A DNA stretch of 31,633 nucleotides from a virus, in IMG/VR virus record IMGVR_UViG_3300028025_000694, positions 1-31,633 of that record; one strand, written 5' to 3'. Shown here piece after piece: positions 10,258 to 31,482 of the stretch. Position 1 is the first letter of the stretch; the number at the start of each line of letters is the position of its first letter. Made by a program: the position numbers and the translations under genes. The notes beneath the pieces were generated by a model. That model ran no database searches. It saw only the letters and a program-made list of their open reading frames with translations, and was not told where the DNA came from.

Positions 10258-12126
10258 TTAGAGAGTGATCAAACGATAACGGTAATGATTGAATGTTGTA
10301 CCAAGACCGTTTTTAATTAGGACGCGAATTACATCACCTGCCGACAACAGAGTGTTCAAAGTTGTGAACGACCAGTTGTCTCGATTAGCAGTTGTTGCAA
10401 ACAAAGTTGGATTCACATCGACTCCATTAATGTTGACAACCCAATAATCAGAAGCGCCACCACCAATCGATGTTGGATTGATACACCAAGAAATACCAAC
10501 CACTCGCATTTCACGCTGTGCGGTCAAATACTCAAAATCAGTGCTTCCTGTGATAACTGTGTACTCTGGGAAGTCATTTGAATAGTTGAAGTTTGAACCT
10601 GCACCATTCAAAGTGACACCGCCTGTAACTGCCGATGCTTCCAAATTATTAATCAGAGGCATTTCAACACGAGCGCTAGTAACGCTGCCACCAACTTCCA
10701 ATATCTCTGTCCACAAGTTTTGTGCAGTGTTGCCTTCTATACGCAATCGCAAAACTTCGCTGACATTGATTGCGGATGAAATATTTGAACAATCAATATT
10801 ATTGTTAATAATATTAAGGTAAGTTTTTGCAGAATTTACGGCTGTAATACATCTTGCATTTGTTGCCGTTCCACCCTTTGTGATGTAGTTATTGGAAACA
10901 GTAACTTCATTCATCTTGCCAGACAACAACACAGCATATTTTTTATGCGTATGAATGATGTTGCTGTCAATAATGATTCGTTTAGGGATTAACGTGCCAG
11001 CACCGGTCGATCCGTTGATGTATACGCCATAACCAAAATCGCCTGAAATGGTGTTGATGTTGTTGTTGTTTCGAAGGACATTGCTTGATATGACAATATC
11101 TTCGCAAAGATAGTTGAGTGAAATACCAGCAACGCAATCCTCAACAATGTTGCCTGTAATAACACCCCAACGGTTTGTCAGATTGCTGGATTCCACTTCC
11201 ACACCATACAACTTACCACTGCGAATCAGGTTGTTTGCAATGATGAAGTTTGTTGTACCGTTGTCACAAGCAATGGCTGACTGGTTTCCTATGTTTGTGA
11301 CTGTGTTGTGTGAGAAGTCAATCAGATCAGAATTGTCAACGCTAATCATTCCCCATGCAAACACGCCATCAATTTTGCAATGATGGACTTTTACGTTTGT
11401 ACAACCGTCAACATAAATACCAGTGTCACCATTTTGTGGATCATCTGGGTCAATTAAATTATTGCCTTGAATGAAAATATGAGAGATGTCAATGTTTTCA
11501 ACAGTTTGGCCAAAAATTGCACCACCCTTAGCGTAGCTGGTTGTAATCTGTGAAGATTCGCCAGCGCCCAAAAGATTGACATTGTTTTTTAGGTTAATAA
11601 CTGTGACCAAATACTCACCAGATGGGAAGTAAACAGTGCCGCCACCAGCGTCTTCTGCTGCGTCAATAGCTGCTTGAATCGCTGTTGTTGTATTGGTAGC
11701 ACCAGTGTTGTCAGCGCCAAAGTCTAAAACGCTCAATGTCTGAGCTAATTTTGCTTCGACATTAGTCTGCACCGCACCAGTAAATGGAGGGTCATAAACC
11801 ACATCTTGAGCATTGATGATATTTCCATAACGCTCAGTCGCAGCTGGTGCGCTATACACCAAACTACCATTGCGATTCTGCACTCGGATGCTGTAGTCGC
11901 TGTTGACATACAGGCGTGCAGGTGTTCCGCTGTTGGAAGGGTATCCTGCCAGTGTTCGGATTGGCTGTGTGGCCTGAATTGTCAGTGCAGCATCCCAATA
12001 CACATTGATCGGGTTGGTCTGTGGATTGAGGTTTTTTGTTCCAATCCAGATGTAGCCATTCTCAAGAGGCTGGCCATCGATGTCTGTGAAGATCGGGAAG
12101 GTTGGCTGAATGCTGAGTGCGGTCAT
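10258..12126 (-). CDS. Tailspike with P22-type head-binding domain and pectate-lyase beta-helix
   Basis: This is a 622-residue receptor-binding protein. Residues 1-110 match the P22 tailspike head-binding domain: FPIFTDIDGQPLENGYIWIG near 10-29, INVYWDAALT near 40-49 and NSDYSIRVQNRNGSLVYSAP near 75-94. Residues from about 133 carry the pectate-lyase fold opening (VLDFGADNTG, then TTAIQAAIDAAEDAGGGTVYFP). A repeated right-handed beta-helix with Asn-rich turns (NNVNLLG, NNLIRSG, SNNYI) runs to about 480. The last 120 residues form a separate beta domain. It probably binds and may cut a surface polysaccharide. The gene follows the ejection proteins directly, as expected in a P22-like late operon. 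Confidence 0.9.
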   Translation of the reverse strand: MTALSIQPTFPIFTDIDGQPLENGYIWIGTKNLNPQTNPINVYWDAALTIQATQPIRTLAGYPSNSGTPARLYVNSDYSIRVQNRNGSLVYSAPAATERYGNIINAQDVVYDPPFTGAVQTNVEAKLAQTLSVLDFGADNTGATNTTTAIQAAIDAAEDAGGGTVYFPSGEYLVTVINLKNNVNLLGAGESSQITTSYAKGGAIFGQTVENIDISHIFIQGNNLIDPDDPQNGDTGIYVDGCTNVKVHHCKIDGVFAWGMISVDNSDLIDFSHNTVTNIGNQSAIACDNGTTNFIIANNLIRSGKLYGVEVESSNLTNRWGVITGNIVEDCVAGISLNYLCEDIVISSNVLRNNNNINTISGDFGYGVYINGSTGAGTLIPKRIIIDSNIIHTHKKYAVLLSGKMNEVTVSNNYITKGGTATNARCITAVNSAKTYLNIINNNIDCSNISSAINVSEVLRLRIEGNTAQNLWTEILEVGGSVTSARVEMPLINNLEASAVTGGVTLNGAGSNFNYSNDFPEYTVITGSTDFEYLTAQREMRVVGISWCINPTSIGGGASDYWVVNINGVDVNPTLFATTANRDNWSFTTLNTLLSAGDVIRVLIKNGLGTTFNHYRYRLITL

Positions 12127-28947: not shown

Positions 28948-28961
28948 TTTCTTGATCTGCC

Positions 28962-29164
28962 TGTGGATAACTTTTAACTAAGGGTTTTTACTAATACGTC
29001 ATGGAATTGATCCGCATCGCAAGGGAACTGGGAACACACCTAAAGGTGTGTGTTCCGTTCCGTTCCCGTTTTGCGCTGTTTTGCCAAGGGAACTGCGTTC
29101 CGTTTTTTTCCGTTCCGTTCCGTTGTTACCATTCTCAGACTGTGGATAAGTCTGTTGATAAGTC
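28962..29164. other. Candidate replication origin: DnaA boxes, GTTCC repeats, hairpin
   Basis: The gap between the primase-helicase and the late operon (28948-29166) holds two perfect DnaA boxes (TGTGGATAA at 28962-28970 and 29141-29149) and a third with one mismatch (29153-29161). Between them lie GTTCC units at 29052-29066 (three in tandem), 29097-29101 and 29112-29121 (two in tandem), and GGAAC units at 29024, 29031 and 29089. A hairpin joins GGAACACACC (29031-29040) with GGTGTG-TG-TTCC (29045-29056). An AT-rich stretch follows the first box (28968-28998). The set resembles bacterial and plasmid origins. It could also carry the late promoter; I see no clear -10/-35 pair. Part overlaps nothing coding. 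Confidence 0.6.
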
Positions 29165-29166
29165 AT

Positions 29167-31182
29167 TCAGCGCTCTGACTTTCTGATCATCATGACACTT
29201 GCTTGAGTGTCGTCAATCACGATCCAGCCATGCTCGAAGGACTCGATTATTTCAGCCACCAGCATGTCAGCGATGGGTTTTCCTGTCGCGCTTGGCTTGA
29301 TGTAAACCTTGGCTGAGGACTCGCTTACGTTCATTTTCTGCACCAAGTATTCCATCATGGCCGACCGGCTGAGGTAAGGCAAACCATTGCGTTCTTCGGC
29401 TCCTGACGACCACCAAGCGTTCTCAAAAGTCTTTCTGTGGCTGTCGATCTTGCTGTCTTTCTTGGTCACAGTTGGTGCTTGGGCTTGGACAATCACAGCG
29501 CTGGTCACTTGCTGGTCGTCTTCATCGCGCCAGCCTGGGATGGCCACTTGTTGCAGCTCAACGTGGATGGTCTCGGCCAGTTCTGCGTCTTTGGACTTGC
29601 GCTGCACGATCTGCATGGGCACGCCTTCTTTGCCTGGCACGATGCTGATCTCGATGTCCAGAGCGCCTCGCCATGCGCTTGAGCCTCGAGCTCTGTGCTG
29701 GGCTTCCTCGGCCACGCCTGTGTGGTGTACCAAGATCACCGAGCAGTTGAATTCCTGCATGAGTGCGTTGCATGCGTCCAGCATGGTCTTTGCATCTTGG
29801 GCTGAGTTTTCATCGCCTGAGAGGAATCGGTGCAGGGTGTCGACCACGATCACGCTGGGCCTGTCTTTCAGCATCCTTACTTGCTCGACAACTTTGAGGT
29901 ATCCGGTCGGGGTGTTTAGGTCGCATCCATCTTTGGAGAGCCACATGGCCAGCTTGCCTGCTTTGTGGTGGTGCTTCCAAGCTGCCACCCTGCCGCGCAG
30001 ACCGTGGTGGCCTTCGCCTGCCAGATAGACCACATTGCCTTGGCGCACTTTGTGTCCTGCCCAGTCTTCTGTTCCGCTGGCCATGCGTAGGCACCAGTCG
30101 AGCACCACGAATGTCTTGCCGCCACCGCTTGGGCCGTGGACCATCACCAGTGCTTGGGATTGAATCCACCGTTTGACGAGCCAGCTGATGGGGCTTGGCT
30201 GTGCGCAGAAGTCATCGGCTGGGATGAGCCAGTCGTCTTTGATTGGCATCAGCAGACCTGCCAGATCGTGGCCAGCCTGTGCATAATCGTTGGCATCACC
30301 GAGTATCGGAGGCATAACCATGCGTGCACCGTACTTGGCACTGGCCTGCTCTGCGTAGCGTTGACCGACACCGCTTTGGTCATGGTCTGCGACGATCACG
30401 ATGTCTTGAGTTGCTCCATACATTTCCCTGAGTGTGCCAGTGACCGGCACCAGATTGCTGGCGCTGTAGGCCACCACGACCGGCCTGTCGGTGGTTTCGT
30501 GGATTGTGGCTGCCGTTGCGAATCCTTCGGCCACGAACAGAGTGCCAGGCTCATCTAGTGAGCCTACCATCCAGAACTTTCCGCCTGTCTGACCGCCTGG
30601 GTGGTAGAGCTTGCCACCTTCGTGGTCGATGTACTGCAAGGTGGCCAGAGTTCCGTCTTCGTCGTAGAGTGGCAGCACAAGTCGACCGTCTCCTGTTGCC
30701 CTTGCACCATGCGTCTGAATGCCCTTCTTGGCCAAGTAGGGATGATCTGGAAGTGCTGCCTGTGCGCCTGTCCATATTTTCTCGACCGTGTCGCTGGCCA
30801 CTTGGTGCTGGCGCTCAAGAGCTGCGTCTCTGAGGGCTTTGGCTTCGGCCAGTCGCTTGGCGTGTGACATTTCCTCGGTCTGCGTGAGTTTTCGTCCTAC
30901 GTCTGCACGCCATGTCACTTCCATGCCTGCTCGCCAGCATCCGAATCGACCGGCTGGGATGCCATCACCAAACACCAGATACCAGCCTGGCTTGTCACCG
31001 TGGCCAGGTGCGCCTTTGGTGCCTGATTTAAATCGGTGAATCTTGCCATCCATAAGGATTTCCTCTGGTGGCTGAAGGCCTGCAGCACGCATTGCATCGA
31101 TGAGCTGCGCCTCTGGTGTTGCGACGAGTTTTTCGGGTGGTGGTGCCCAAGGTCCACCAAGGACTTTTGAGAGGTCAGCCAT
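29167..31182 (-). CDS. Primase-helicase: Toprim domain fused to RepA-like AAA ATPase
   Basis: This 671-residue protein joins a primase and a helicase-type ATPase. The N-terminal 200 residues form a primase-associated region (GDGIPAGRFGCWRAG near 72-86). A Toprim domain follows, with FVAEGF (Glu 219) and IVIVADHDQSG (Asp 266, Asp 268). The RepA/AAA_25-like ATPase has Walker A GPSGGGKT at 350-357 and Walker B VIVVDTLHRF with Asp 448. A HTG near 500 and an RGSSAWRGA near 512 are typical for this ATPase group. The C-terminal 130 residues may contact DNA. It loads or unwinds the fork and makes primers beside the candidate origin. It overlaps the HTH gene by 8 bases. Confidence 0.92.
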   Translation of the reverse strand: MADLSKVLGGPWAPPPEKLVATPEAQLIDAMRAAGLQPPEEILMDGKIHRFKSGTKGAPGHGDKPGWYLVFGDGIPAGRFGCWRAGMEVTWRADVGRKLTQTEEMSHAKRLAEAKALRDAALERQHQVASDTVEKIWTGAQAALPDHPYLAKKGIQTHGARATGDGRLVLPLYDEDGTLATLQYIDHEGGKLYHPGGQTGGKFWMVGSLDEPGTLFVAEGFATAATIHETTDRPVVVAYSASNLVPVTGTLREMYGATQDIVIVADHDQSGVGQRYAEQASAKYGARMVMPPILGDANDYAQAGHDLAGLLMPIKDDWLIPADDFCAQPSPISWLVKRWIQSQALVMVHGPSGGGKTFVVLDWCLRMASGTEDWAGHKVRQGNVVYLAGEGHHGLRGRVAAWKHHHKAGKLAMWLSKDGCDLNTPTGYLKVVEQVRMLKDRPSVIVVDTLHRFLSGDENSAQDAKTMLDACNALMQEFNCSVILVHHTGVAEEAQHRARGSSAWRGALDIEISIVPGKEGVPMQIVQRKSKDAELAETIHVELQQVAIPGWRDEDDQQVTSAVIVQAQAPTVTKKDSKIDSHRKTFENAWWSSGAEERNGLPYLSRSAMMEYLVQKMNVSESSAKVYIKPSATGKPIADMLVAEIIESFEHGWIVIDDTQASVMMIRKSER

Positions 31183-31360
31183 GCGTCACCTTGCGGCTTT
31201 CCAAGTAGTTGGACAGCGCCAGCAGGACTTTGTGGGTTGGATTTGCGTTGGGGTTGTCGCGCACTTGACGGATGGTGTTGTAGTGCACGCCAGTGGCTTC
31301 TGCCACCTTGACTGGCATTCGATCGGAGAGCGCGTCTCGTATCTGCTCTAGGGTCATCAT
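31175..31360 (-). CDS. Small helix-turn-helix regulator (61 aa)
   Basis: This 61-residue protein has a HTH pattern: MPVKVAEATGVHYNTIRQVRDN, cut at about residues 15-36, where VAEATGVHYNTIRQV gives the two helices and the turn. A short third part (HKVLLALSNYLESRKV) follows. It resembles Cro/CI-type or Bacillus-type small DNA-binding proteins. It starts next to the divergent promoter region (31361-31482), so it probably controls its own operon with the primase and the opposite Sak4-like operon. AAGGAAAA precedes the ATG. Confidence 0.8.
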   Translation of the reverse strand: MMTLEQIRDALSDRMPVKVAEATGVHYNTIRQVRDNPNANPTHKVLLALSNYLESRKVTHG

Positions 31361-31482
31361 GTTTTTTTCCTTTGTTGAAAATATTTATTGCGATGTGTGG
31401 ATATTACACTAAAAAATGGTTTATAGTTACGTCACACCTCGAACTGATTCCCAGACGGAGGTGCAAAAAATAGGAGAGCCAA
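31361..31482. promoter_or_regulatory. Divergent control region between HTH gene and Sak4-like gene
   Basis: This 122-base non-coding region separates two divergent operons. For the rightward one, TATAGT at 31422-31427 is the best -10 match; no good -35 is visible. Inverted near-copies, CGATGTGTG (31391-31399) and CACACCTCG (31433-31441), lie on either side and could be operator half-sites. TGTGGATAT at 31396-31404 differs from a DnaA box by one base. A TAGGAG site lies before the ATG at 31483. Confidence 0.5.

Follow-up and report, generated by a model that had tools for sequence, protein, structure and literature searches.

A probable replication origin with iterons, a dyad and DnaA boxes beside the primase-helicase gene of an uncultured phage family

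Introduction

The alpha protein of satellite phage P4 unites a Toprim-type primase, a helicase and a C-terminal winged-helix domain that binds the origin repeats (as summarised in PMC4234260). For pRN1 ORF904 and Bordetella phage BIP-1/BPP-1, a stem-loop origin lies directly downstream of the gene for a primase-helicase with a C-terminal winged helix; the sequence of the stem varies while its pairing is kept, the proteins carry an archaeo-eukaryotic primase and an SF3 helicase, iterons are absent, and no specific binding could be demonstrated in the case of pRN1 (PMC4234260). The plasmid origins P1 oriR and RK2 oriV hold iterons that serve the plasmid's own initiator, together with host DnaA boxes, the position and orientation of which matter, and P1 has two DnaA-box arrays (PMC4980987).

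We examined a 31.6-kb IMG/VR phage contig with a P22-like portal and coat module (IMGVR_UViG_3300028025_000694; positions 1 to 31,633, the whole stretch analysed, hereafter the window). It also encodes a tail spike with a pectate-lyase-like beta-helix (10258–12126, minus strand) in a region of unusually low GC content (ca. 0.39 vs 0.52). The proposed origin is a gap that directly follows the first of two neighbouring genes:

29167–31182, minus strand: primase-helicase, 671 aa, with Toprim_3, AAA_25 (RSF1010 RepA-like) and a C-terminal winged-helix-like domain (Pfam/PHROGs)
31175–31360, minus strand: HTH protein, 61 aa, encoded upstream of the primase-helicase and rejected as reader of the iterons

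As in P4 alpha, primase, helicase and C-terminal winged-helix domain occur in one protein, judged from a predicted topology for which the fold matches are weak. The helicase of P4 alpha belongs to SF3, whereas that of the window phage is not of SF3 type but has a RecA-fold AAA_25 domain of the RSF1010 RepA/T7 gp4 type. Unlike in P4, moreover, DnaA boxes flank the proposed origin and the iteron sequence varies widely between relatives. With P1 oriR and RK2 oriV the locus shares an array of short direct and inverted repeats and DnaA boxes beside a putative initiator gene, but here helicase and primase are part of the proposed phage initiator and the array has a central dyad. A RepE/TrfA-type Rep was not found: the adjacent protein carries Toprim_3 and AAA_25, and the HTH protein does not track the iterons. 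The stem-loop just after the primase-helicase gene and its compensatory stem changes recall pRN1 and BIP-1, although the window phage has Toprim and AAA_25 domains as well as iterons. A RepA-type helicase, iterons and short origin stem-loops are also found in RSF1010, where, however, RepA, RepB' and RepC are three separate proteins instead of one fused protein, which in the window phage is accompanied by DnaA boxes. The proposed origin combines a P4-type self-initiating primase-helicase with P1-/RK2-type DnaA sites, and it fits none of these families by itself, since an SF3 helicase and a RepE/TrfA-type Rep, which define them, are missing. No description of it was found in a search of the open-access literature.

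DnaA boxes in the window and its relatives

Three DnaA boxes lie inside the 219-base gap 28948–29166, between the stop of the primase-helicase gene and a 60-aa ORF:

28962–28970, plus strand: DnaA box, distal, third in gene orientation; perfect TGTGGATAA, in most relatives at about +197 from the gene stop
29141–29149, plus strand: DnaA box, second in gene orientation; perfect TGTGGATAA, position kept in relatives
29153–29161, plus strand: DnaA box, first in gene orientation; TGTTGATAA, with one mismatch in the window and perfect in most relatives

The original prediction had reported two perfect boxes and a near-copy at these positions next to the primase-helicase gene, the last two in a 12-base tandem unit (TGTGGATAAGTC, then TGTTGATAAGTC), and had held the pair to be beyond chance; all of this is borne out. 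The two perfect boxes are the only ones in the whole 31.6-kb window, for which a Markov-1 model predicts 0.145, and the probability of two within 210 bases anywhere is about 1.4e-4. A further near-box, TGTGGATAT, was noticed at 31396–31404 within the divergent promoter region (31361–31482) between the genes of the HTH protein and a Sak4-like protein.

A search of viral contigs with the primase-helicase yielded 80 loci with 81–99% identity, in which the boxes are kept, as had been anticipated. In ca. 650 kb of these related loci 192 of the 197 perfect boxes occur less than 300 bases from the stop of the primase-helicase gene, where they are about 1000-fold denser than elsewhere. Of the remaining five, three are the same trio, displaced by a foreign insert in locus L023. 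This insert of ca. 950 bases with an acyltransferase-like gene (L023:6200–7150), 86% identical to a Rhodoferax MAG, separates the box/iteron element from the stop of the primase-helicase gene and represents either an insertion or an assembly chimera; if the contig is sound, it hints at a freshwater Burkholderiales host.

The boxes are found at +6, +18 and about +197 after the gene stop, with spacings of 11–12 bp and then 178–181 bp (165–167 in six loci). Their count over 78 gaps is 162, compared to a mean of 0.27 and a maximum of 24 for 200 permuted 9-mers, and the 9-mers present in most gaps are the DnaA box and its shifted neighbours. Among 49 aligned loci the distal box is near-invariant as AAAAGTTATCCACAG. 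The match to the R-type DnaA box TTATCCACA thus both exceeds chance and is kept in relatives. A 55-aa ORF over the gap (28999–29166) was rejected as coding, since in relatives usually no frame stays open and the changes in box spacing are not divisible by three.

Similar geometry is found farther away. In L159 (64% identical) boxes occur at 0, 12 and 225, and in L221 (78% identical) all three are on the opposite strand (13, 24, 205) with the same geometry and GACCC-type repeats; its sisters L219, L220 and L224, also with GACCC-type repeats, have a perfect box pair ca. 181–192 apart on that opposite strand. Overall, DnaA boxes are limited to one clade and a few outliers, and many relatives are without any.

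Two further features of the site gave less support. The AT-rich stretch noted beside the box at 28962 is real in the window, where 28971–29005 is 69% AT and the 45 bases from 28962 rank in the top 1.1% for AT, but it is not kept: the corresponding region averages 51% AT in relatives, and only an A7 tract, at 29103–29109 in the window, is conserved. The stretch is, therefore, unlikely to be a conserved unwinding element. GC skew is uninformative for the site: the window and five longer relatives show no clear or consistent turn, and the skew tracks gene direction.

Iterons and dyad between the boxes

The space between the boxes holds a T7/A7 tract as well as nine GGAAC/GTTCC pentamers and a dyad, the last two of which formed no part of the original prediction:

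29024–29035, plus strand: two GGAAC iterons (29024–29028, 29031–29035), inverted relative to the tandem trio and kept as GTTNCCAGTTNCC in relatives
29034–29051, no strand assigned: dyad with 7-bp arms ACACACC/GGTGTGT and apex TAAA (TTTA on the minus strand); stem changes complementary in relatives
29052–29066, minus strand: three GGAAC iterons in tandem, repeating every 5 bases (minus strand GGAACGGAACGGAAC); relatives have GTAACGTAACGTAAC or other sequences here
29089–29121, no strand assigned: four more GGAAC iterons (29089–29093, 29097–29101, 29112–29116, 29117–29121) around the A7/T7 tract

Read on the minus strand, the dyad is ACACACC-TTTA-GGTGTGT, with flanks that run into inverted GGAAC copies. 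The A7/T7 tract (29103–29109) is conserved, CGNAAAAAAACGNAA being kept in 49 loci. The single strand folds better than shuffled sequences (z = -2.8), and the dyad stems take 25 forms among 98 loci with mostly complementary changes. Judged from this pattern, the symmetry of the stem is under selection; a cruciform and a palindromic binding site would both fit.

The layout, i.e., tandem repeats, stem, TTTA or TATA apex, complement of the stem and inverted repeats, is common to many loci. The repeat sequence itself varies by relative (GGAAC, GTAAC, GCAAC, CCCCT, GACCC, GGACA, GGTAC, GTTCA and others). In L007, 97% identical to the window in the primase-helicase, GTAAC replaces GGAAC through most of the array, and some arrays, those of L024 and L038 among them, retain the other repeat type in one copy or a few. 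Among 169 loci, 117 have their most repeated place in the gap; many of the others have CCCCT types, which the filter excluded, or belong to a clade without this gap. Box-free distant relatives keep repeats after the same gene, and frequently a dyad as well: GTTCA in Alteromonas phages XX1924 and PB15, GTACA in Idiomarinaceae phage 1N2-2, GGGAC in Salicola phage CGphi29 and GGAAC in L250 (71%). In the clade of L118–L157 and L248–L260 neither iterons nor a dyad follow the primase-helicase, the next genes follow directly, and the recognition segment of the C-terminal domain (see below) is longer; the origin of this clade should, therefore, lie elsewhere. At the DNA level the element had no match in annotated phages, and no prophage copies were found in named genomes.

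In L015 and L054, small CCTTTAGG/CCTATAGG-like palindromes occur downstream of the gap (compare the dyad apex, 29041–29044). Similar ones are present near the origin in several relatives and could represent a separate operator, e.g., for the small HTH protein.

The C-terminal domain of the primase-helicase and the repeat type

The primase-helicase resembles RSF1010 RepA by sequence and, outside its C-terminal domain, T7 gp4 and RepA by fold. Two parts of its tail are of interest for the repeats:

29170–29454, minus strand: C-terminal winged-helix-like domain (AlphaFold), residues 577–671, proposed iteron reader
29278–29331, minus strand: putative recognition segment, residues 618–635, holding 622, 626, 632 and 633; best predictor of iteron type (tree test, partial correlation)

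From an input alignment consisting of the window and IMG/VR loci, AlphaFold predicted the last 101 residues as helix-strand-helix-helix-helix-hairpin-helix with a pLDDT of 93. Residues 622 and 626 are placed on a helix (621–627) after a turn, with 632–633 just behind it. The fold matches of the domain are individually weak (best E 0.11), and among the best are many winged-helix DNA-binding proteins (BusR, CRP-family regulators, CggR, CadC and MntR); comparison with PDB sequences gave no credible match.

When window-type GGAAC loci are set against their nearest GTAAC relatives, all fully separating protein columns fall within residues 622–663. Residue 626 (codon for V626 at 29305–29307 in the window) is the best of 671 columns for distinguishing GGAAC from GTAAC (0.985 bits, 70 loci), followed by 633 and 632. 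It is V in 29 of 30 GGAAC loci and Q in 32 of 40 GTAAC loci, the remaining eight being distant loci with M, L or R. Locus L064 has T at this position and, together with these M, L and R residues, indicates that the code extends beyond 626. Reading of the T:A pair of GTAAC by glutamine would be ordinary protein-DNA chemistry. On a tree built on residues 1–560 the repeat type switched at least nine times on supported branches, and a change at residue 626 accompanied eight of nine independent pairs with none opposed (p = 0.008).

Such an association could also arise if recombination swapped the 3' end of the gene as one block with the gap, in which case it would have no functional meaning. Because the gene end coding for the C-terminal domain adjoins the gap, linkage accounts for some of the association, and the comparison of L007 with the window (98.4% identity in residues 1–560, 87.8% in the last 82, and a different iteron) is what block exchange would give. 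However, across 115 loci with many repeat types it is the similarity of segment 618–635 that correlates best with that of the repeats (partial correlation 0.26, reached in 0 of 300 permutations), compared to 0.11 for 601–617 and about zero for 636–651 and 652–668. The latter lie nearer to the repeats, which argues against mere linkage. Furthermore, L038 and L073 (GTAAC) share their last 82 residues with L024 (GGAAC) except for V626Q, A632S and T633P, and the pairing of Q626 with GTAAC recurs in relatives of 48–65% identity. We consider linkage as the sole explanation, therefore, to be unlikely. The upstream HTH protein was rejected as the iteron reader because it is identical in the pairs window/L007 and L024/L038, whose repeats differ. 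It seems, from this covariation, that the repeats are read by the tail domain of the neighbouring primase-helicase.

Origin model

The site had been proposed as a phage origin driven by host DnaA. The first half of this proposal is well supported by the conserved position, the box geometry, the iteron array, the dyad and the primase-helicase domain that tracks the iterons; the second, as worded, is not, since the boxes are clade-limited, the iteron/dyad module exists without them and the iterons track an initiator-like domain of the phage itself. Based on comparative sequence data, we estimate a probability of roughly 0.8 that 28948–29166 is a replication origin bound by the phage's own primase-helicase as initiator, with host DnaA in a helper role. 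The C-terminal winged-helix domain would bind the GGAAC iterons that flank and enter the dyad, as the covariation suggests, and the bound copies may assemble and distort or extrude the dyad, or open nearby DNA. The RepA/T7-type helicase ring and the Toprim primase, identified from their domains, would then be placed on the opened DNA. The conserved boxes, two close together on one side and a single one ca. 180 bp away on the other, are presumably bound by host DnaA, which may assist as in the P1 or RK2 plasmid origins, either looping the region or opening it. In evolution, the iteron sequence and the putative recognition residues have changed together while the box positions stayed.

Alternatively, DnaA alone could recognise and open the region as at oriC, with the primase-helicase loaded later and the repeats and dyad of secondary importance. 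Three boxes in strict geometry, found almost nowhere else in these genomes, and the rise of a similar geometry in other lineages would fit such a role. Nevertheless, L250 (71%), Alteromonas phage PB15 and Idiomarinaceae phage 1N2-2 have the iteron/dyad module without DnaA boxes, an oriC-like orisome would be expected to have more than three boxes, and neither the lack of conservation of the AT-rich stretch nor the covariation of the iterons with a phage protein is in line with it. We regard this scenario as improbable; from the same sequence comparisons, host DnaA is more likely a clade-specific helper.

The gap could also serve transcription, as an operator or terminator between early genes with DnaA as transcription factor and a repressor on the repeats. 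DnaA can regulate promoters, the gap lies between co-directional genes and its hairpins resemble terminators. Yet a search of the gap for terminator-like hairpins gave none on the minus strand, which is the transcribed one, on which ground the dyad was rejected as a terminator, and the only promoter match beside the gap is weak. The nearby HTH protein stays identical where the iterons differ, and the recognition residues are in the primase-helicase, so that a role in transcription control is very unlikely. That the boxes soak up host DnaA and thereby stop host replication, as perfect consensus boxes in a multicopy genome might, is hardly credible for only three boxes at one fixed place, phased around iterons and missing from many relatives.

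Implications

The proposed origin bound by the primase-helicase joins two known designs in one phage origin, i.e., the self-initiating primase-helicase and the DnaA-assisted iteron origin. For a large uncultured phage family (413 candidate loci in one scan) it provides a likely origin together with the residues that would choose it. The matched variants of repeat and recognition helix form a natural panel, directly testable, for how an initiator and its origin may shift specificity together with function kept. We tentatively raise the possibility, still rather doubtful, that these are private origin-initiator pairs: on at least nine supported branches the iteron array would have been rewritten along with a change of two or three recognition residues (626, 632, 633), so that phages or satellites in a co-infection could not draw on one another's replication protein, with the host DnaA docking sites fixed. 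If this were true, the pairs would act like plasmid incompatibility types.
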